This document shows, piece by piece, positions 22,885 to 32,444 of a DNA stretch of 64,000 nt. The notes under the pieces were generated by a model. The model did not search any database and had not been told where the DNA came from. It was given only the letters and a program-made list of their open reading frames with translations. Each line of letters starts with the position of its first letter. Within the stretch, counting starts at the first letter, position 1. Location of the stretch: assembly GCF_027214005.1 (NCBI RefSeq), contig NZ_JAPWGY010000001.1:806001-870000 (forward strand), given 5' to 3'. Both the position numbers and the translations under genes were made by a program. Source of the DNA: Kiloniella laminariae. Its GTDB lineage: Bacteria; Pseudomonadota; Alphaproteobacteria; Kiloniellales; Kiloniellaceae.

Positions 22885-23103
22885 ACCCGGGTCATCGACC
22901 TGTCTGAAAAGCATAATGGCAAGGATGCACGGCTTTTCAAATGATCAGATCCCGAGAAGGTCATGGAGAAGATCACGGGAACGAAAAACAGCAAGAAGTG
23001 ATTGTTCAGATTTTTTTTGAACCTTTCCCTGATCACCTGCGACAGAAGCTGTAACGACAGTGTTTTGCTGTCTGCATACTTTTAGAAGATCAGGGGAAGA
23101 GAC

Positions 23104-24417
23104 ATGAAAAAAATTGCAACGGTATTATTGAGTGCCAGTGTTCTGGGAAGTGTCAGCGTTCTGGCGCTGGGTATATCTGCAGCGCAGGCAGCAAGCGGCA
23201 CATCGGAATATGTTCTGGATGTGGATCTGAACCTCGGGGCCGGAAATGCACAGAACCCGATTATTGTCCGCAATATCTCGAACAACAAACATGTCAGCAA
23301 TGTCAACCTGAAGACCCAGGGAACCCAGCTGGTGATCCCGGCGACAGGTCTGGTTCAGTGTGCCGATAAACAAAGTGTCGATTACGACAAATCCAGAATT
23401 TATTTTGGCGCTATCGGTATGGGCGGGCTGGATAACATCAACGACAGTGGTGCTTTGCACCAGAGCACGTTCCATCCTTCGACCAAAACACGGATCGGTC
23501 TGGGTAAATGGATTACCGAAGCCGGAGGCAGCGACAGCTATAGCGTTCCGCTGGACCAGATCAAAAACGGACATCCGGCCGTTCGTGTCGACCCCGTGGC
23601 CGAAATCAATAAAAAGCTGCAGGCGCATTTGCAGGGCGGTGGCAAAGCGGTCGATTTTTACAAGGCCAACCAGACGGTGAGCGTTTCACGGACTGTTTCG
23701 CTGGCAGGCTGGTGTGAGAAAAATGGCCTGTCCAAAGCAGGATTTGAAACCCAGACCTATCAGATAAGCATTCGCTATGAAGGTGACAGCGAGGTTTATG
23801 ACCAGGCCAAAATCAAACAGGGGCTGGTCCAGAACAATCAGCAGATCAACCACGGCCTGCCCTTTATGCTGAGCAGCGCGACTTTCCAGCCCAACATGCC
23901 GCACTTTATCGGCAAATGTGTGCCGGACGACAACCCGAAGATCCGGGTCAATTTCAATGGTAATGGCAAGGGCGTGGTTGATTTTATCATCGAAGACAAT
24001 GGCAGTCCGGTCTATAGCACTGCCGGTGTGCTGTATGATTCCAAAAATGGTGATCAGTCATTTGATTTCTATTATCCGCTGAAACTCAAAATGTCTCAAA
24101 AACATGACTGGAAGACCATCAACAAGACGTTTGAGCACGGTTTGACGGTCAAGGCGCGTTTCAAGGACCAGAAGGATATCAACACCAATAACTGGAGCAG
24201 CTGGAAAGACTTTGGTGCGGCCACCTGGAAGCACCGTTGCACCCCGCAGGTGGCTGTCACTTCAGGACAGAACGGTATTGGCTACCAAGGCCAGCAAGAC
24301 CCGACCAACCCTGCGGTGAAACCGTTGCGCAAACCACAGCCTGCACCGCTGGTGATCGACCAGATCCAGGCACAGCCGGCAAAACCGAAACGTCAACAGG
24401 TTCAGGCCCCGGAATAA
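23104..24417 (+). CDS. hypothetical exported protein
   Basis: A 437-residue secreted protein with a classical signal peptide (MKKIATVLLSASVLG..., cleavage near AQAAS, residue 30). The mature part is beta-rich, with four or more cysteines in pairs (LVQCADK, AGWCEKN, GKCVPDD, KHRCTPQ). It ends in a proline/glutamine-rich tail (QAQPAKPKRQQVQAPE) that is likely unstructured. Two segments, PHFIGKCVPDDNPKIRVNFN and WKDFGAATWKHRC, look like the ends of a beta-sandwich. I do not recognise the family. AGGGGAAGAG gives a strong ribosome site. A strong terminator follows, so it is a single-gene transcript. Confidence 0.75.
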   Translation: MKKIATVLLSASVLGSVSVLALGISAAQAASGTSEYVLDVDLNLGAGNAQNPIIVRNISNNKHVSNVNLKTQGTQLVIPATGLVQCADKQSVDYDKSRIYFGAIGMGGLDNINDSGALHQSTFHPSTKTRIGLGKWITEAGGSDSYSVPLDQIKNGHPAVRVDPVAEINKKLQAHLQGGGKAVDFYKANQTVSVSRTVSLAGWCEKNGLSKAGFETQTYQISIRYEGDSEVYDQAKIKQGLVQNNQQINHGLPFMLSSATFQPNMPHFIGKCVPDDNPKIRVNFNGNGKGVVDFIIEDNGSPVYSTAGVLYDSKNGDQSFDFYYPLKLKMSQKHDWKTINKTFEHGLTVKARFKDQKDINTNNWSSWKDFGAATWKHRCTPQVAVTSGQNGIGYQGQQDPTNPAVKPLRKPQPAPLVIDQIQAQPAKPKRQQVQAPE

Positions 24418-24732: not shown

Positions 24733-26859
24733 ATGACAGGGAATCTCTATATTGTCAGACCATTTGTTTTGCAGCTGATTCAGCGTGCGGGCAGATGCAT
24801 TTTTTGTATCATTTTTTCCTTTTTACTTGCCAGTACTGCACGGGCGGAATGGGTGGCAAACTTTGTCCCGCCAGAAGAACCGGGTGCCGGGTTGCGTATC
24901 GATCTGCCCGAAGATCTGGATATTCTGACCCTGACCACGCTGGCGGTTGAACTTGACGGCATTGATATCACGGCCCTGCTGTCGCTTGATGATACGGATT
25001 TTATCTATACCCCGGTTGAACCGCTGGGTGGTGGTGAACATCTGCTCAGACTGGTCATTCTCAACGGCGATGGCACAACCACCGAAAAGAACCGCTGGGT
25101 TTTTCAGGTTGAAGGCGGCGTTCCGTCAGGCGCGGTCAGCGCGACAAACGCCCCGTCCGAACAAGAACAGATCGCCCAGGCCGAAGAACTGCTGCGCTCG
25201 GCCTCTTTCCGGGCCGATACCCTGACCGAGTTCAGCAGCCGGGTCATGCAACAGAATATCGGCCATGACACCAACCGCAACATCCTGTCTGGCAGTGGCG
25301 ATGGCAATGCGGCTTTTGCCTCGGAAAACTGGGACATCCGGGCCCATGCCAACTATCTGGTCCAGAGCGATGTCGACCAGTCCCTGACCGGGCACCCGGC
25401 GGACATCGGTGAATATGATATCACCGCCGACTTTACCGGGGACAGCATGAAGGGCGGTATGACCCTTGGTCATCATGATATCGGTCTGGACAATCAACTG
25501 GTTTCCAGTTTTTACCGTCGGGGCAGTTCTGTGCGTCTGGGGACGCGGGATGAACGTTTCGAGGCCCAGGGTTTTGCCTTTGGCACCAGTTCGGTTGCCG
25601 GGGCCAGTGACTTTACCGGATTGAATGACAGCGATGACCGGATCAAGGGGCTAACCGCCTCGGTCAAGCCCTTTTCGGATGGGGTTGATGACATCGATGC
25701 CCTGAAAATCACCGGACTTTATTACGATGGAACGGGCGACGGCGGCGGTATCGGACTTGAGGAAGAAGGGGGCGACCCTGGTTCCTCCTCAACCGGATCT
25801 GGCTGGGGGCTGGTGCTGGAAAAGAGTTTTGATCAGCAGCGTACCCGGTTGCGCGGGGAATATGCCCATGCGCTGTTTGATCAGGATGGCTCGGGAGGAG
25901 AGGCGCCAAAGGATGGCAGTGATGCGATTTCCCTCTCCGCCGATCATCGCCTGTTTGAGCAAGGGCCTGTTGTCTTTGATGATGTGCTCGAGATTGATGT
26001 GGGGGTGGGCTATGACCGGGTGGAGACGTTTTTTGCCAGTCTGGCCAATCCGGGACTGATCGGGGACCGTGAAGCCTACAGTGCCTATAGCAACATCTAT
26101 TGGGGAGCCTTGTCAGGCAATGTCTATCTGCTGGATGAAACCAACAACGTTGATGATCTGGCCTCGACCCCGACCGATCGCCTGCAAAGTCTTGACGCCA
26201 GCCTGAATTACAGCTTTGACCCGCAGACAGGGGCGATGGAATGGCTTGGTACTCCCTATGTCGGGCTGTCCGGCTTTGTCGCCCTGCTGGACCGGGAAAA
26301 AACGCCGGATGGCTATGATGGACCGGATACCGACAGCCTGTCGAAATCACTGACCTTTACCGTCGGCTCCAGCTATACTGACTGGTACTGGTCAGCGTCA
26401 CAGAGCTATGCCCGCTTTGACGATGATACAAATGAAACCAGTGATACGGTTAATCATCTGAGCGGGATCAATGCAGGCTGGAGCGTATCAGACCGGCTGG
26501 ATATCTATGGCGGAACACAGTTCGGGGTTTTCGAGGAGGAAGACAGTGACAAGCTCAGCTATAACACCAACCTGTCACTGGGTGTCTCGGCAGAGCTGGT
26601 ACCCGAAAAACTTGACCTGAATCTTGATTATAATTTGAACCTTGCGAACGGCAGTGGCGACACACCTGATAGCCACATCGTCAATAGCGAGGTTGAATGG
26701 ACCTTCCTTCAACCACGCAGTAATCGTCCGGGACTGGCTCTGGCGGCCCGTGGTTCGATGGAGGAAACTAATGGAAGCACAGATAGTACAGAAAATGAAA
26801 CAGATTATCAGGTCTATATGCTCTTGCGGGTCAAGGCCCCCTTTGCGTTTGGTTACTAG
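24733..26859 (+). CDS. putative outer-membrane beta-barrel protein
   Basis: A 708-residue exported protein. A hydrophobic signal segment near residues 20-38 ends at STARAEW. An Ig-like domain follows (about 40-130, LDGIDITALLSLDDTDFIYT, GEHLLRLVILNGDG). From about 170 on, alternating polar/hydrophobic strands rich in Gly, Asp, Tyr and aromatic residues are typical of an outer-membrane barrel, and the chain ends in aromatic FAFGY as barrels do. I chose the ATG at 24733, behind GGAAGGG; a TTG at 24700 is also open. Its stop lies inside the next gene by 89 bp. It heads a five-gene run with an ECF sigma factor and protease. Specific family not recognised. Confidence 0.72.
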   Translation: MTGNLYIVRPFVLQLIQRAGRCIFCIIFSFLLASTARAEWVANFVPPEEPGAGLRIDLPEDLDILTLTTLAVELDGIDITALLSLDDTDFIYTPVEPLGGGEHLLRLVILNGDGTTTEKNRWVFQVEGGVPSGAVSATNAPSEQEQIAQAEELLRSASFRADTLTEFSSRVMQQNIGHDTNRNILSGSGDGNAAFASENWDIRAHANYLVQSDVDQSLTGHPADIGEYDITADFTGDSMKGGMTLGHHDIGLDNQLVSSFYRRGSSVRLGTRDERFEAQGFAFGTSSVAGASDFTGLNDSDDRIKGLTASVKPFSDGVDDIDALKITGLYYDGTGDGGGIGLEEEGGDPGSSSTGSGWGLVLEKSFDQQRTRLRGEYAHALFDQDGSGGEAPKDGSDAISLSADHRLFEQGPVVFDDVLEIDVGVGYDRVETFFASLANPGLIGDREAYSAYSNIYWGALSGNVYLLDETNNVDDLASTPTDRLQSLDASLNYSFDPQTGAMEWLGTPYVGLSGFVALLDREKTPDGYDGPDTDSLSKSLTFTVGSSYTDWYWSASQSYARFDDDTNETSDTVNHLSGINAGWSVSDRLDIYGGTQFGVFEEEDSDKLSYNTNLSLGVSAELVPEKLDLNLDYNLNLANGSGDTPDSHIVNSEVEWTFLQPRSNRPGLALAARGSMEETNGSTDSTENETDYQVYMLLRVKAPFAFGY

Positions 26860-27979
26860 AGCCCTTGCAGCATCGCAACTGTTGGCTGGAATTTTATCTG
26901 TTCTGGCCCTTCTGTCCCTGTCTTCGCAGGTCCAGGCCAATGTCAATTCTGTAACGGCGTCACCAGCGCGGGTTGCTGTTCCGGCCAAAGGTGCGGCGAC
27001 TTTTTCTGTGAACTGGGTTGTCAATCGGACAGAGCCGACGATCAGCGGTACTGTGACTGTTTCTTCTGCCAATGCCCAGCTCAGGGTTAACGGGGTAACG
27101 ATTGCAACGCTGGGCCAAACTCTGTCCAGGCCTTCGACCCTGGCAATCACACAGAGCGCAAGCCTGTCCTTTAATGAGGTTATCACCCTGAACCCGGCAC
27201 AGGCGCGTCGGGTATCCGACGCCCCGGCTGGCGCAGTGACCATCACCCGGACCTTTACCGATACCCAGACCACAGGGCTTGGTACCCTTCGGGTTTTTGC
27301 CGGTCCCGGTATTGGCGGTTCCCTGAACATTCGCCGGATTGATCTGCACTTTGAAAACGACGCCCGGACTGATGTGGTCCGCAAGGATGAAAGCATCCGC
27401 GCCATTGCCGAGCTGAACTTTCGCAGCAGCGGTCTGTTGCGGGGGGAGTGGCGGATTATTGATCCAACAGCAAGCCTTGGTTCAGCCCGTGGCCGTGTGT
27501 TGCAGGTGGTGCGTCAACAGCTTGCCAGCTCTGGCGAGGGACGGACCCGTATTGTCAGTCCTCCCCTGCCAACCCGGGCAAACGGCCTTTATCTGGTGAC
27601 CTTCGTCGTGGCCGATACAGACCGGACCATCGAGACACCGATCCTGCGCTATTTTGTGCTGGAAGGGACCGTCGAAGCACCGCAGGAAAATCTCACGATC
27701 CTGACGCCGGGTGAGGGAACAGCGGTTAGTACAGCCACAGTCTTTTCCTGGAAACCCCTGTCCGGAGCGACGGCCTATCAGCTGGAAATTTTTGATCCGG
27801 GGCAGAGCATCCCGGTTTCAGGCAAGCTGGTGCCGGGAACAGATCTGACACTCAGTCTCTCCACGCTGTCGCTGGAAAACCTTGATCCGGGGAAACGTTA
27901 TGACTGGCGTGTCAGGGCTTTTGACAGGGAAGGGCGGGTTGTCGGTCTTTCCCCGCGACAAAGCCTGATGATGCCATAG
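26771..27979 (+). CDS. exported Fn3/Ig-like envelope protein
   Basis: A 402-residue protein. After a basic N-terminus, a hydrophobic segment (about 35-52, LLAGILSVLALLSL) ending at VQANVNS looks like a signal peptide or anchor. Two beta-sandwich-like regions follow. The last about 100 residues resemble a fibronectin type III or Big-like module (FSWKPLSGATAYQLEIFDPG, GKRYDWRVRAFDREGRVVGL). The start at 26771 has GGAGG 7 bases upstream and overlaps the barrel gene by 89 bp in another frame, implying translational coupling. Role unknown; from context it may be a periplasmic or surface partner of the barrel and the downstream protease. Confidence 0.72.
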   Translation: MEAQIVQKMKQIIRSICSCGSRPPLRLVTRALAASQLLAGILSVLALLSLSSQVQANVNSVTASPARVAVPAKGAATFSVNWVVNRTEPTISGTVTVSSANAQLRVNGVTIATLGQTLSRPSTLAITQSASLSFNEVITLNPAQARRVSDAPAGAVTITRTFTDTQTTGLGTLRVFAGPGIGGSLNIRRIDLHFENDARTDVVRKDESIRAIAELNFRSSGLLRGEWRIIDPTASLGSARGRVLQVVRQQLASSGEGRTRIVSPPLPTRANGLYLVTFVVADTDRTIETPILRYFVLEGTVEAPQENLTILTPGEGTAVSTATVFSWKPLSGATAYQLEIFDPGQSIPVSGKLVPGTDLTLSLSTLSLENLDPGKRYDWRVRAFDREGRVVGLSPRQSLMMP

Positions 27980-27992
27980 GGACATTCATCCG

Positions 27993-28586
27993 ATGAAAAA
28001 CACGACGCCCCCCAATGCATCAGAAAAGATATCTGATAACGAAACGGCAGTGTTACTTCTGGAAAAAATCGGCAAGGGCAACGAGCAGGCCTTTGCCGAT
28101 TTTTACCGTCTGTTTGAAAAACGCCTGTTCAGGTTTATCAAATCAAAATTGAACGATTCCTTTGAAGCCGCCGACATACTTAATGAAACGCTCCTCGAGG
28201 TCTGGCGCAAGGCCGATAGCTTCGAGGGGAGATCAAAAGTATCAACCTGGCTATTTGGAATAGCGTATTACAAAACGGTGGACAGAATGCGCAAGCGAAC
28301 AGACATCCCCATGGACGAAGAGAATTTTCCAGAAACGGCTGATGACAGCCCGGATGCCATGGCTTGTCTGCTTTCTGCGGAACGTGGCGAGCATATCCGC
28401 TATTGTCTTGAGAAGCTCAAGTCCGTGCAGAAAGCTGTTATGGAACTGGCCTTTTTTCAGGATCTGCCTTATGGCGAGATCGCCCGCATTGTTGATTGCC
28501 CGGAAAACACCGTCAAAACGCGTATGTTCCATGCCAAACAGGCAATGAAGCACTGCCTGTCCAGCAGAATGGGAGCAGACGGATGA
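27993..28586 (+). CDS. ECF-type RNA polymerase sigma factor
   Basis: A 197-residue sigma-70 family protein of the extracytoplasmic-function type with only regions 2 and 4. Region 2 spans about 30-100: FADFYRLFEKRLFRFIKSKL, AADILNETLLEVWRKADSF, VSTWLFGIAYYKTVDRMRKR. Region 4 spans about 130-190: LEKLKSVQKAVMELAFFQDL, PYGEIARIVDCPENTVKTRM. It directs transcription of an envelope-related regulon and probably its own operon. It lies 13 bp after the Fn3-like gene and shares ATGA with the anti-sigma gene, so it is made together with its inhibitor. Confidence 0.93.
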   Translation: MKNTTPPNASEKISDNETAVLLLEKIGKGNEQAFADFYRLFEKRLFRFIKSKLNDSFEAADILNETLLEVWRKADSFEGRSKVSTWLFGIAYYKTVDRMRKRTDIPMDEENFPETADDSPDAMACLLSAERGEHIRYCLEKLKSVQKAVMELAFFQDLPYGEIARIVDCPENTVKTRMFHAKQAMKHCLSSRMGADG

Positions 28587-29230
28587 GCGACATCAGACAA
28601 GACCTGGAGGAACTTCTGCCCTTTTATGTCAATGGCAGTCTGTCACCCGAAGAACAAAAACGGGTTGAGCAGGCCCTGGCAGAAGATCCTTCTATACAGA
28701 AAGAAATAGATTTTCTGGAACAGCTGCGTGCCGAGGTCAGGGACCTCGACAGGGGCAACAGCCCCGGCGAGTTCGGCCTGAAACGGCTGCAAAAAGCCTT
28801 GAAGGATGAACAGAAGCTGGTTAATTCCGCGCCCCAGACGGGATCAGCTGTTTCAGGGTATACCAGAGGCTGGCGTCTGGCGGCCATCGCGGCCTGTCTG
28901 TTGCTCTTGCTGCAAACGGCGGTGACCCTGCCACTATGGCAGAAAAGGGGAGATGACCTGATTGCTGCTGGCGGGGGGACGGGCAGCCAACTCAGCGGGC
29001 AGATCATCAGTGTCACCTTTGTCCCGGAAGCCCGTGAGGAAAATATCCGCAATCTGTTGCTGGCGGTTGATGCCTCTATTGTTGAGGGCCCCTCGGCGCT
29101 GGGGGTCTACCGTCTGTCGGTTGCCCAGAACAGTGATGCTGTGGTCGAAAAACTTCTGGCGCACAGAAATCTGGTCGAAACAGCCCAGAATGACAGCAGC
29201 GGGTATTCAGGCCGGAAAGCGGGGCAGTGA
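28583..29230 (+). CDS. putative anti-sigma factor, single transmembrane segment
   Basis: A 215-residue protein. The cytoplasmic N-terminus (LEELLPFYVNGSLSPEEQKRVEQ) is like anti-sigma N-terminal domains but has no cysteine/histidine zinc set. One membrane segment lies near residues 95-115 (LAAIAACLLLLLQTAV). The periplasmic part has a compact alpha-beta domain (QIISVTFVPEAREENIRNLL, SALGVYRLSVAQNSD). This looks like a ligand- or protease-sensing fold. It should hold the ECF factor at the membrane. The ATGA overlap with the sigma gene and 1-bp overlap with the protease gene suggest that protease, anti-sigma and sigma act together. Identity rests on position plus topology. Confidence 0.8.
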   Translation: MSDIRQDLEELLPFYVNGSLSPEEQKRVEQALAEDPSIQKEIDFLEQLRAEVRDLDRGNSPGEFGLKRLQKALKDEQKLVNSAPQTGSAVSGYTRGWRLAAIAACLLLLLQTAVTLPLWQKRGDDLIAAGGGTGSQLSGQIISVTFVPEAREENIRNLLLAVDASIVEGPSALGVYRLSVAQNSDAVVEKLLAHRNLVETAQNDSSGYSGRKAGQ

Positions 29231-30837
29231 TGCTGAAACCAAGCTGTCTTGCCCTGTTATTGCTGATCAACACGGGCCTGAGCACTTTTGCGCTGGCGCA
29301 GGCAGACCCTTCAGACCCGTCTGCGGTTCCCGGCACAGCACCTGAACGTCCTGCGCGGGAAGACAGATCCCCCGAAATAACCGGACTGGTCAGTGCCTGT
29401 GTCCGGCTGGGTGACATGTTGACCATTGAAGGCAAAAACCTGCTGGAGCTGGGACGCCGGGCGCCTGCGCTGGAACTCAACGGCAAGGTTACCCTGATCG
29501 ATGTGCTCAATCGCAGCAACGAACGTTTCATCACCCGCCTGCCCGGTGAGGGGCTTCAAGCTGATCAGGCCTATCGTCTGGTGCTGGTGGACAAGAACAA
29601 TATCCGCCAGTATCAGCGCAGTGACCTGCGGGTGCGGATCTGCCCCCGACCTGCGGCTCTTGCCGAAGGTGTGACGACCGCAACCCCGGAGCGAGACGTG
29701 CTGATCCTGATTGCTCCGGATCAGGAAAGCTCTGTTCTTGCCGCGCTGGCTGCCAGATCGGTGCCGTTGCTGGAACGCCACGATCTTGTGGCGATGGACC
29801 GTCTGCTGCTGCGGGTGCGTACAGAGGACGCAACGGGGTTGATCCTGGATCTGCGTCAGGTTTTCCCCGAAGCCGAGGTTGATCTCAATGATGATCTTGC
29901 AGCTGGTAACGGCCCCCGGGTCTATGCAAAAAAAAAGATCGCCTGGCCCGAAGGAGAAAGCTGTTTTGAGCCGTTGATACAGTCAGGGATCGCGAACAGC
30001 TCGGGGCTTGTCGTTGGTTTGCTGGACGGGGCGATTGACAGTTCTCACCCGGCCTTTACCGGGCAGACGCTGATCTCGGCTGACTTTCTGGAAGGCTTGA
30101 CCGCGGATCGGGAGCATGCCACGGCGATTGCCTCTATTCTCACAGCTGTTGCCCCGGATATGGGGCTGAAGGGTTTGTTGCCGGGCGCGCGCCTCTATAG
30201 CGCCGTGGTGGTGCGCCGCAGTGCAGAGGGACGGCAACTTGCCAGTACGGAAGCGACCTTGCGCGGGCTCGACTGGTTGCTGCAACAGAACATCCGGCTG
30301 ATCAATGTTTCGCTGGCCAGCGACCGGGCAAACCGCCTGCTGATCCGGGGGTTCGAGATCACCCTCTCGCGGGGTGCCCTGGTTTTTGCTGCTGCAGGCA
30401 ATCAGGGAGCCGGAGCACCACCAGCCTATCCGGCAGCGGTTGAGGGTGTGATCACGGTAACGGCACTGGATGCCGCCAACCGGATTTACCCGGCGGCCAA
30501 TCAGGGCGGCTATATTGATCTGGCGGCACCGGGCGTTGATATCTGGTCGGCTGCAGCGACCGGAGGAGGGGGTGATGCATCCGTTTCCGGTACTGCCAGT
30601 GCTTCTCCGGCTTCCGTGGTTTCTCCGGTTTCTGCCGTTTCTGTTGGCGGGGCCTATCGCAGCGGGACGTCCTATGCCGTACCCTATGTGCTGGCCGCAG
30701 CAGCCCTGTTTCAGCTCAGAAATCCGTCGATTTCCAACAAGGTCCTGCTGCTGGCCCTGACCCGGGGCGCCGAAGACCTTGGCGATCCGGGCCGGGATGA
30801 TGTTTTTGGTGCCGGCCTGCTGCAGAGCGGTTGTTGA
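29230..30837 (+). CDS. exported S8 (subtilisin-like) serine peptidase
   Basis: A 535-residue secreted protease. Signal peptide (ending near ALAQA, residue 25) is followed by an IPT/TIG-like beta domain (about 48-135, DMLTIEGKNLLELG). A prodomain-like stretch comes next, then the peptidase domain from about 255. The triad reads Asp266 (VVGLLDGAID), His296 (REHATAIASI) and Ser481 (SGTSYAVPYV), with oxyanion Asn391 (AAGNQG). The His motif is the looser EHATxIAS form rather than HGTHVAG. A Ser/Val/Ala-rich insert (about 450-470) precedes the active serine. It is the last gene of the sigma/anti-sigma run and is a candidate to cleave the anti-sigma factor or barrel partner, which is inference. Confidence 0.88.
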   Translation: MLKPSCLALLLLINTGLSTFALAQADPSDPSAVPGTAPERPAREDRSPEITGLVSACVRLGDMLTIEGKNLLELGRRAPALELNGKVTLIDVLNRSNERFITRLPGEGLQADQAYRLVLVDKNNIRQYQRSDLRVRICPRPAALAEGVTTATPERDVLILIAPDQESSVLAALAARSVPLLERHDLVAMDRLLLRVRTEDATGLILDLRQVFPEAEVDLNDDLAAGNGPRVYAKKKIAWPEGESCFEPLIQSGIANSSGLVVGLLDGAIDSSHPAFTGQTLISADFLEGLTADREHATAIASILTAVAPDMGLKGLLPGARLYSAVVVRRSAEGRQLASTEATLRGLDWLLQQNIRLINVSLASDRANRLLIRGFEITLSRGALVFAAAGNQGAGAPPAYPAAVEGVITVTALDAANRIYPAANQGGYIDLAAPGVDIWSAAATGGGGDASVSGTASASPASVVSPVSAVSVGGAYRSGTSYAVPYVLAAAALFQLRNPSISNKVLLLALTRGAEDLGDPGRDDVFGAGLLQSGC

Positions 30838-31004: not shown

Positions 31005-31613
31005 TTGCAGGTTCCTCTGTTTGTTACGCGCGGGCTATAAAAACCTGCAAGCAACGTATCAGAGGGATCTTACAGTAATCTGACAAGTCCGGGTGGTTTT
31101 CATGACAGGCCGGAGAAAAGGTAATGGTCCACCAGTTTCCGGTCTTATTGTCTATTCTGCTTGGGTCTGGTTGTAATCCACTGCCCGCCTTCCCATATAC
31201 ATATGATAGAAAATTGATATTCCTGACTTGCCGGTTTTAAAACCGGGTGCAGTCGTTTCAATTTCCCATCAAGAAAAATTAGTCGTTATGGTCCAGCTCC
31301 GGGTTACTCGTCTGGTAAAGGCTGCTGCTATCTCTGCAGGCAATCTCCCTCGGCTGTGATCTTTGCTTACATATCTGGGGCAAGCGACCTGTTGTCGGCC
31401 TGTTATTGGCTGAAGTTCCTGTAAATCAGTGTTTTCACGCCTCAAGAAGAACCGTGACGCCTCAATTCTGACAAGGCAACACGCGCGAGGCCGTTTTCTG
31501 TCACTGCGCGGGTGCTGTCCAGAGCGGCAATGCCTGTTAGACAGATCGGGAACAAACCAGTTCAGGCAAAATTGAAACAGCGATGCGGCGCTTTCTCCGC
31601 CAAGGAGTTAGTA
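31005..31613. other. 609-bp intergenic region, no supported gene
   Basis: Apart from the promoter regions expected for the small membrane protein and the repeat protein, it holds only a short palindrome, CCGGTTTTAAAACCGG, near 31232. I see no RNA gene or mobile element. Confidence 0.4.
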
Positions 31614-32444
31614 ATGCCCAGATCCAAACAATCCACCCTGGTTTCCGTGATGCCTCTTGCGTCCCTGCAGAAGAAAATGCGCTCTCTGTTGCTGCTCTTC
31701 CTGCTGACCGTCCTGTATTTTATGGTCTTTGGGTCACAGGGTGTCGCGTTATCCCAAACTGTTCTGATCCCGGAAAATGCCCATGCAAAAAGCTATGGTG
31801 ACGGATGGGAATGCAATACTGCTTTCAAAGCGGACGGAAAGACCTGTGTGGCGGTTGTCGTCCCCGAAAATGCCTTTTCCACCAATCAGAGATACGGGAC
31901 AGGTTGGGAATGTCTGCATGGCTTTCAGGAAATCGGGGCATCCTGTGTTCCGGTCAGCGTGCCTGTTGGTGGCTATCTTGATCATAGAGGCCAGAGTTGG
32001 AAGTGCAGTCGCGGGTATCGTGAAATTGATAAGGGCTGCCAGGAGATTATCTTGCCGGAACATGCATATCTCTCCAACGATTCCTATGGTTCTGGATGGA
32101 CTTGTGATCGCGGTTACAAAGAAACAGCCGGGAAGTGTGCAGCCATCGTTGTTCCTGAAAATGCTTTTCTGAACTCATCGACATATGGTCTGCCCTGGAC
32201 CTGCGAGCGGGGTTACGTTGAAATGGGCGGAACCTGCAAAGCGGTGACTATCCCGACCAATGCCTATTTTGATGATGCAACCTATGGGGCGGGCTGGGTG
32301 TGTGAACGTGGCTTTGCCGCCGTGGGGGATGCCTGTGTCACAGTAGAGGTGCCACCAAATGCCCATCTGGATCGCAGCGGCAGACGCTGGGATTGTAACC
32401 AGCATTTCCGTCAGTCAGACGGGAAATGTGTTCTTAACAACTGA
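31614..32444 (+). CDS. exported protein with seven cysteine-paired repeats
   Basis: A 276-residue protein starting behind AAGGAG (6-base spacing). An N-terminal signal/anchor segment lies at about 23-45 (SLLLLFLLTVLYFMVFGSQG). Seven tandem repeats of 31-33 residues follow, each of the form V-P-x-N-A-(12-14)-W-x-C-x-x-G-(8)-C. Examples are VPENAFSTNQRYGTGWEC and VPENAFLNSSTYGLPWTC. Each repeat has exactly two cysteines, so seven intra-repeat disulfides are plausible in the periplasm or outside. I cannot name the family with confidence. An upstream in-frame start (TTG 31512) is less likely. The repeats differ by many substitutions, so they are old, not a recent expansion. Confidence 0.75.
   Translation: MPRSKQSTLVSVMPLASLQKKMRSLLLLFLLTVLYFMVFGSQGVALSQTVLIPENAHAKSYGDGWECNTAFKADGKTCVAVVVPENAFSTNQRYGTGWECLHGFQEIGASCVPVSVPVGGYLDHRGQSWKCSRGYREIDKGCQEIILPEHAYLSNDSYGSGWTCDRGYKETAGKCAAIVVPENAFLNSSTYGLPWTCERGYVEMGGTCKAVTIPTNAYFDDATYGAGWVCERGFAAVGDACVTVEVPPNAHLDRSGRRWDCNQHFRQSDGKCVLNN

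Follow-up and report, generated by a model that had tools for sequence, protein, structure and literature searches.

The locus described here raises the question of how an extracytoplasmic function (ECF) sigma factor is set free when a secreted protease is encoded directly behind its anti-sigma factor. The locus lies in a 64,000-nucleotide stretch of Kiloniella DNA (contig NZ_JAPWGY010000001.1, positions 806,001 to 870,000; hereafter the window), where genes for a predicted outer-membrane barrel, an Fn3-like protein, an ECF sigma factor, an anti-sigma factor and a subtilase follow one another. A preliminary description had presented these five genes as an envelope module, and checks of the open reading frames (ORFs) and of Pfam found all of them as described. 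The barrel and Fn3 genes overlap by 89 bp out of frame, a gap of 13 bp separates the Fn3 and sigma genes, the sigma and anti-sigma genes overlap by 4 bp, and the anti-sigma and subtilase genes overlap by 1 bp (4 bp if the GTG at 29227 is the start). The five-gene extent, by contrast, was too small: the unit begins one gene earlier, as a conserved promoter lies before that gene. We give about an even chance to reading this unit as an autoregulated ECF switch coupled to proteolysis, in which the subtilase docks on the anti-sigma factor and cuts it.

The above-cut-off Pfam matches of the five-gene block are Sigma70_r2, Sigma70_r4_2 and Peptidase_S8. With Sigma70 regions 2 and 4 only, both above the curated cut-off, and a length close to the usual 200 aa or so, the sigma factor belongs to the ECF type. 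The anti-sigma factor is less easily recognized. Its N-terminal anti-sigma domain falls just below the Pfam cut-off for zf-HC2 (22.0 vs 22.2 bits), and the NCBIfam anti-sigma model NF052375 (E 2.1e-11) is also below its cut-off (44.2 vs 100 bits). An anti-sigma profile scan of named genomes yielded 45 loci, partly in the same genomes as 40 regions fetched around subtilase matches in relatives; the two sets share some contigs, and their counts are not added together. The anti-sigma alignment (A2) also has 45 rows, since the short fragment at locus L120 was left out and the window added. Alignments A3 to A5 have 35, 29 and 32 rows, truncated or duplicate ORFs having been left out; A6 holds 40 of the 45 anti-sigma rows, and A8 is without L081. 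The zf-HC2 model reaches E 0.05 or better in 30 of the 45 family members. In the AlphaFold model of the window's protein, a helical N-terminus is followed by one long helix (residues 94-121), which is hydrophobic by sequence. A single predicted transmembrane helix, in a gene directly after that of the sigma factor, is in keeping with a class I (RseA/zf-HC2-type) membrane anti-sigma factor, although the N-terminal domain scores below the Pfam cut-off.

The main evidence comes from the C-terminal part of this protein. Residues 138-203 are predicted to form a beta-alpha-beta-beta-alpha-beta fold with high model confidence (predicted local distance difference test score, pLDDT, 92-96). A Foldseek search of the PDB placed POIA1 first, and the first six matches comprise POIA1, EpiP and the propeptides of subtilisins BPN' and E (E 0.012-0.027, probability 1.0). 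The Pfam model Fervidolysin_NPro-like also matches (E 0.0064), at 17.3 vs 21 bits; because this is below the gathering score, we call the domain propeptide-like and do not file it as a family member. A PDB sequence search with the full anti-sigma profile returned nothing below E 0.1. When the domain was compared with the propeptide region of the neighbouring subtilase by hhalign, a match of 24% probability was obtained (E 8.3e-4, 69 columns). Of 65 control slices, the only ones above 1.2% were those that share residues with the propeptide region (2-16%) or with the start of the domain itself (6%). Against the propeptide regions of subtilases at other core loci, the probability was 43% (32 sequences) and 60% (4 sequences), whereas catalytic slices gave 0.4% or less.

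The distribution of the domain points to the same partner. A profile of the domain alone was run over 397 sampled proteobacterial genomes from 232 genera, and the domain was found in 37 genomes from 23 genera, the window's own included. The other 36 genomes, which belong to 22 genera and include related genomes that are not independent, gave 37 matches, whose surroundings (11.5-13 kb) were fetched. One of them (L183) was set aside since it is itself a subtilase: there the profile matches the propeptide of a true subtilase, for which Pfam Fervidolysin_NPro-like gives E 6.8e-7. In the remaining 36 regions, an ECF sigma gene lies within 250 bp of the domain in 34, and a subtilase gene is present in 32, within 250 bp in 30; as the 36 genomes hold 99 subtilase matches, about 0.24 subtilase neighbours would be expected. 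A predicted protease of one kind or another occurs in 35 regions (32 subtilase, 3 caspase-domain), and barrel and Fn3 genes occur in a single one (L158). Sigma factor, anti-sigma factor and subtilase are thus the core, and the barrel and Fn3-like proteins are an addition. Many ECF units carry their outputs, and the subtilase could be such an output, since its gene stands last in the unit, behind promoter motifs. It would then be a product of the regulon that processes the barrel, the Fn3-like protein, the first protein or a protein from outside, and the anti-sigma factor would answer to another protease or signal. We regard this as unlikely, because both the match between domain and propeptide and the subtilase neighbours, nearly all of them without barrel and Fn3, would have to be coincidences.

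The end of the domain bears on what the protease would do with it. Solved subtilisin propeptides run on for a few residues past their last strand into the active site of the protease. In 32 of the 45 anti-sigma factors, only 0-2 residues follow the equivalent of residue 203 in the alignment. In the VIA-align superposition with pro-subtilisin E, the last aligned pair is 204 with 71, and a prosegment of 77 residues is among the Foldseek matches. A shortened form may still bind: PDB entry 3a3o, judging by its title, is subtilisin with a propeptide minus five C-terminal residues. The domain could also work as a protease buffer that inhibits the subtilase or aids its folding, as POIA1 or a free propeptide would, and that free subtilase competes away, so that the switch would read the level or activity of the protease and match its synthesis to need, the anti-sigma factor being no substrate. 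The shared fold fits this idea, as do the listing of POIA1 as a serine protease inhibitor, the overlap of the protease and anti-sigma genes (probably on one transcript), and the C-terminal tails in Kiloniella, which extend 12 residues past the last strand in the window and in Kiloniella laminariae and 8 in the other four. However, most of the family seems to lack the tail with which inhibitory propeptides reach the active site, the window's tail is by eye rich in Gly and Ser, and the subtilase has a propeptide-like region of its own. The buffer is therefore rather improbable in our estimation.

Docking followed by cleavage in the linker is favored over inhibition because the tails are mostly short and because the linker probably leaves the fold at the active-site edge and carries a conserved motif. 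In the usual topology of this fold, strand 1 starts beside the end of strand 4; the linker that joins the domain to the membrane helix should therefore emerge at the edge where a propeptide would enter the active site. Small residues are conserved in this linker (A129 in 38/45, G131 in 34/43), the rest of the stretch being variable and modeled with low confidence. By eye, [YF]-x-x-[AL]-[SG]-like motifs recur in the linkers of core loci. Arg-containing linkers in anti-sigma factors partnered with caspase-domain proteins were considered as a swap of specificity and rejected: the caspase-partnered side is represented by few lineages, and linkers of subtilase-partnered anti-sigma factors can contain Arg as well.

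The catalytic residues of the subtilase are D266, H296, N391 and S481, with Asp, His and Ser in the S8 domain; among 35 sequences, D266 and S481 are invariant and H296 and N391 are present in at least 90%. A role in defence was rejected, as the sole PADLOC result for the protease is a generic subtilase model (E 7.8e-18). From the computed gene order, predicted fold, adjacency and promoter motifs, we infer the following course. The membrane-spanning anti-sigma factor would keep the sigma factor on the cytoplasmic side and show the propeptide-like domain in the periplasm, where the secreted neighbouring subtilase may dock on it as on its own propeptide. As most anti-sigma factors of the family end after the last strand, without an inhibitory tail, the active site would be left free, and the cut would most likely fall in the linker before strand 1, which leaves the fold at that edge. 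Release of the sigma factor would then be completed by a site-2 protease; an M50 homologue in the genome (G000:C54, E 3.2e-72) is the candidate. For the barrel and the Fn3-like protein, the most likely roles are envelope output, signalling to the protease when to act, or both; the preliminary description had them as possible sensor, substrate or secretion route for the protease. It had also suggested that regulated proteolysis releases the sigma factor. This suggestion is strengthened by the propeptide-like domain and by its subtilase neighbours; as to the cleavage step, it remains a proposal.

Autoregulation is suggested by two promoter motifs. The region before the first gene contains TTTGAACYTTYCCC-N10-CGWCAGA in all six Kiloniella compared (the window is one of them), with the GAAC-N17-CGWC arrangement of ECF promoters. 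With one mismatch at most, TTTGAACNTT-N14-CGWC was found in sense orientation in 14/46 regions that precede the first gene or the barrel gene, in antisense orientation in 0/46, and in 45/2000 random windows. A whole-genome search with this loosened pattern gave five matches with at most one mismatch, compared with three for the reversed-pattern control; two of the five are perfect, and these are P1, before the first gene, and P2, within the barrel gene. A longer pattern gave 13 genome matches with at most two mismatches, compared with 8 in the control. The match at P2 is not an independent discovery, because the pattern was loosened after similar sites had appeared inside barrel genes. Codon choice in 29 barrel orthologues, which are related and not independent of one another, provides a separate test. 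Leu635 is encoded by TTG in 20/22, compared with 4.3 expected from the genes' own usage, and Leu637 by CTT in 15/21, compared with 4.25 expected, the highest among 46 leucine columns (next, 9/15); codon 644, as read from the table of codons, ends in A in 29/29 whatever the amino acid. We read this strong synonymous-site constraint as independent support for an embedded promoter that may serve the Fn3, sigma, anti-sigma and subtilase genes. The sigma factor would then raise transcription from P1 (the whole unit) and from P2, producing more blocker and more protease. In the f50 core loci, the sigma gene is preceded by a conserved block. No coherent picture emerges from the genes next to the three imperfect matches in the genome, and no regulon is claimed.

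Several results weigh against this proposal. Fervidolysin_NPro-like reaches E 0.05 or better in only 10 of the 45 anti-sigma family members (best, 6.2e-4), and no Foldseek match of the domain reaches E 0.001, with RRM domains close behind the propeptides. In VIA-align (Z 7.8 at best), RRM, ACT-type and ribosomal proteins tie with propeptides; this method is unable to tell propeptides from other ferredoxin-like folds, which are common. The profile comparison by hhalign discriminates better. Against the propeptide regions of 18 subtilases that stand without this anti-sigma factor (L061-L078), hhalign gave only a weak 4.8% (control, 0.6%). The window's own anti-sigma factor, given its 12-residue tail, is not tail-less. 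The promoter motif occurs in just 14 of the 46 upstream regions; six of these are the Kiloniella set, and two, at position -1, are doubtful. Four of the 36 domain regions have no subtilase: a Peptidase_C14 caspase-domain gene is found in three of them, adjoining the anti-sigma gene in L162 and L170 and about 2 kb off in L184, and L159 has neither. Nor is there a subtilase in the stretches of four Azohydromonas loci; L114, the one checked among them, has a C14-domain gene upstream of the sigma gene. The domain therefore cannot be solely a dock for subtilases. The ties in VIA-align and the caspase-domain neighbours would also suit a generic ferredoxin-like sensor that has no dealings with the protease, its likeness to propeptides being a coincidence of fold. 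This is very improbable, since the first six Foldseek ranks and Pfam agree on propeptides, slices of the module's proteins outside the propeptide were unmatched in hhalign, and nearly every domain region holds a predicted protease.

The gene order itself is not a chance arrangement. The preliminary description would have been refuted by an order confined to this strain; instead, in the 45 loci the order is kept 31 times, in genera that include Kiloniella, Curvivirga, Sneathiella, Pelagibius, Methylophaga and Nitrincola, and hence in two classes, the alpha- and gammaproteobacteria. The other 14 consist of two rearranged loci, one cut by a contig end, four with sigma, anti-sigma and subtilase genes, four with sigma and anti-sigma genes, and three with the anti-sigma gene only. 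The window's anti-sigma factor is 81% identical to that of K. laminariae. Some full-order loci, e.g., in Pelagibius, have two Fn3 genes, and 42 Fn3-like homologous ORFs were counted in the 45 loci. Among the 31, the barrel is split into two ORFs in L094 and cut by a contig end in L098, L103 and L113. By longest ORF, 15 of these 31 loci have a barrel/Fn3 overlap of 80-92 bp, and 9 of the 15 have exactly 89; in 8 loci the overlap is longer, and in the last 8 it is at most 4 bp. In the 40 subtilase-centred regions, the full five-gene order was found 17 times, and in 18 (L061-L078) the subtilase is without this anti-sigma factor. Three loci of a single genus (L046-L048) have about 4 kb between the anti-sigma and subtilase genes and the barrel-Fn3 part, which is accompanied by the sigma gene where the stretch extends to it (cf. 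L191-L193); a fourth locus of that genus, L045, has anti-sigma and subtilase genes only, and L044 is cut by a contig end.

Comparison with known systems suggests that an anti-sigma factor with a propeptide-like domain beside a protease is a variant of proteolysis-coupled ECF control. In the sigma-E system (RseA/DegS/RseP), there are likewise an ECF sigma factor, a single-pass anti-sigma factor, a secreted protease acting in trans and an M50 protein in the genome; here, in contrast, the protease is a subtilase (S8) instead of an HtrA/PDZ protein, it is encoded with the sigma factor, the anti-sigma factor carries the propeptide-like domain, and cleavage is a prediction. With subtilase propeptides and POIA1 (Inhibitor_I9 / Fervidolysin_NPro-like), the domain shares its fold and a profile similarity to the propeptide region of the neighbouring subtilase; unlike them, it sits on a membrane anti-sigma factor and not on a protease, it is tail-less in most members, and in the window it scores below the Pfam threshold. 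FecIR cell-surface signalling also unites an outer-membrane barrel, an ECF sigma factor and an anti-sigma factor in one locus, but the barrel here is a 26-strand model without a Pfam match, and a protease is present. Signalling of the FecI/FecR/FecA type was rejected, as no TonB or FecR Pfam match was found in the five proteins. In the animal SREBP system, the regulator is held in a membrane and is first cut by site-1 protease, which is a subtilase; this system is eukaryotic, and the likeness is an analogy only. Subtilase and CHAT (caspase-like) genes also lie near the ECF gene in group ECF54, for which a review reports no anti-sigma factor and proposes proteolytic control (PMC8999054). Here an anti-sigma factor is present and carries the domain, which separates the unit from ECF54 as described in that review. 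Screened by title and start of abstract, a full-text literature search that did not cover the main 2021 ECF re-classification returned no anti-sigma factor with a subtilase propeptide domain, and absence from print is not claimed.

More tentatively, the unit may represent a widespread class of envelope switch. In such a class, the anti-sigma factor would show a mostly tail-less propeptide mimic, and the protease would bind it through the surface that holds its own propeptide and cut a fixed linker. The protease would be exchangeable (subtilase or caspase-domain protein) and the domain would stay; in the marine branch, the barrel codons of the operon would hold a second sigma promoter. To our knowledge, the first protease has yet to be assigned for many anti-sigma factors. 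If an anti-sigma factor carries the docking piece of the adjacent protease, the pairing of protease and substrate can be deduced from sequence, and the protease, the cut region and the promoter become directly testable predictions. The switch would also provide a bacterial subtilase that starts signalling by cutting a membrane-held regulator, as animal site-1 protease does.

Table 1. Positions of the genes, protein regions and promoter motifs of the unit, counted from the first letter of the window
Feature	Position	Strand	Description
Upstream gene, first of unit	23104-24417	+	Predicted secreted protein, 437 aa, no recognised fold
Barrel gene	24733-26859 (ATG)	+	Outer-membrane barrel with N-terminal Ig-like domain (predicted), 708 aa
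Fn3-like gene	26771-27979 (ATG)	+	Predicted periplasmic protein, 402 aa
ECF sigma gene	27993-28586	+	197 aa; Sigma70_r2 E 3.9e-12, Sigma70_r4_2 E 1.2e-13
Anti-sigma gene	28583-29230	+	Single-pass, 215 aa; zf-HC2 and NF052375 below cut-off
Subtilase gene	29230-30837 (ATG)	+	Predicted secreted, 535 aa; Peptidase_S8 E 3.1e-28
Anti-sigma linker motif, residues 126-132	28958-28978	+	Conserved small residues; putative cleavage region
Anti-sigma subtilase-propeptide-like domain, residues 138-203	28994-29191	+	Pfam below cut-off, predicted fold, Foldseek, hhalign
Subtilase's own propeptide-like region, residues 150-224	29677-29901	+	hhalign partner of the anti-sigma domain
Promoter motif P1, ECF-type	23016-23046	+	TTTGAACCTT-N14-CGACAGA (GAAC-N17-CGAC), before first gene
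Promoter motif P2, ECF-type	26634-26664	+	Within barrel coding sequence, 106 bp before Fn3 gene

In at least 15 of the 45 loci, a homologue of the first gene lies upstream, and its distance from the barrel ORF ranges from 65 to 2559 bp; the count is a minimum because several of the stretches stop too soon. Fourteen of these 15 homologues were aligned with the window's protein, and four Cys are invariant. Its best Pfam match has E 0.22, and an NCBIfam fimbria-assembly model (E 0.012) is far below cut-off. No Pfam or NCBIfam match up to E 1 was found for the barrel, and PDB sequence searches with the first protein, the barrel and the Fn3-like protein gave nothing below E 0.1. The AlphaFold model of the barrel (mean pLDDT 77.6) has an Ig-like domain followed by 26 strands. 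Its Foldseek matches (E down to 6e-8) include ushers, the Mtr-complex barrel and TonB receptors, but among the 50 matches listed no TM-score exceeds 0.40 by query or 0.45 by target, and such values do not allow assignment to a family. In the Fn3-like protein, fn3 matches residues 320-389 below cut-off (E 8.9e-5, 23.1 vs 25 bits). Distant relatives of the barrel (E 2.4e-26) and the Fn3-like protein (E 3.1e-19) adjoin a TPR-CHAT protein in L199, with a CHASE2-cyclase two genes on; in L200 the pair stands at the contig start, before genes that by eye are of flagellar type. The profiles of the sigma factor, the anti-sigma factor and the subtilase were all unmatched in these two stretches. The barrel/Fn3 pair is therefore an envelope unit found with different neighbours, and since it occurs without the other three and accompanies them in a single domain region, it looks like an accessory pair and not like part of the core switch. 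The CHAT protein of L199 is another protease-like partner for the pair.

Some minor observations were made in the same data. Extra anti-sigma copies occur in Denitrobaculum and relatives (L109, L111 and L120), where the sigma and subtilase profiles were unmatched in the fetched stretch; in L109, two uncharacterised genes precede the copy. A different ECF-subtilase pairing is found in Kiloniellales relatives (L070, L074 and L077), with an aspartate-rich subtilase gene divergent from that of the ECF sigma factor, which in L074 and L077 is followed by a gene that by eye is anti-sigma-like. Downstream in the window, positions 31512-32444 encode a protein, predicted to be secreted and built of Cys-containing repeats, that matches EGF_MSP1_1 (E 1.1e-8), and no homologue was found among the 40 subtilase-centred regions. 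In L155 and L160, the sigma gene and that of the propeptide-like anti-sigma factor are on opposite strands, tail to tail, and the subtilase gene adjoins the latter. A second, distantly related ECF sigma gene lies about 3.4 kb from the core in L179, L180, L181, L186, L187 and L189. The core switch is also found on plasmid pRX1 of Methylocapsa polymorpha (L216), where its genes are annotated as an S8 peptidase, a sigma-70 factor and, for the anti-sigma factor, a hypothetical protein.

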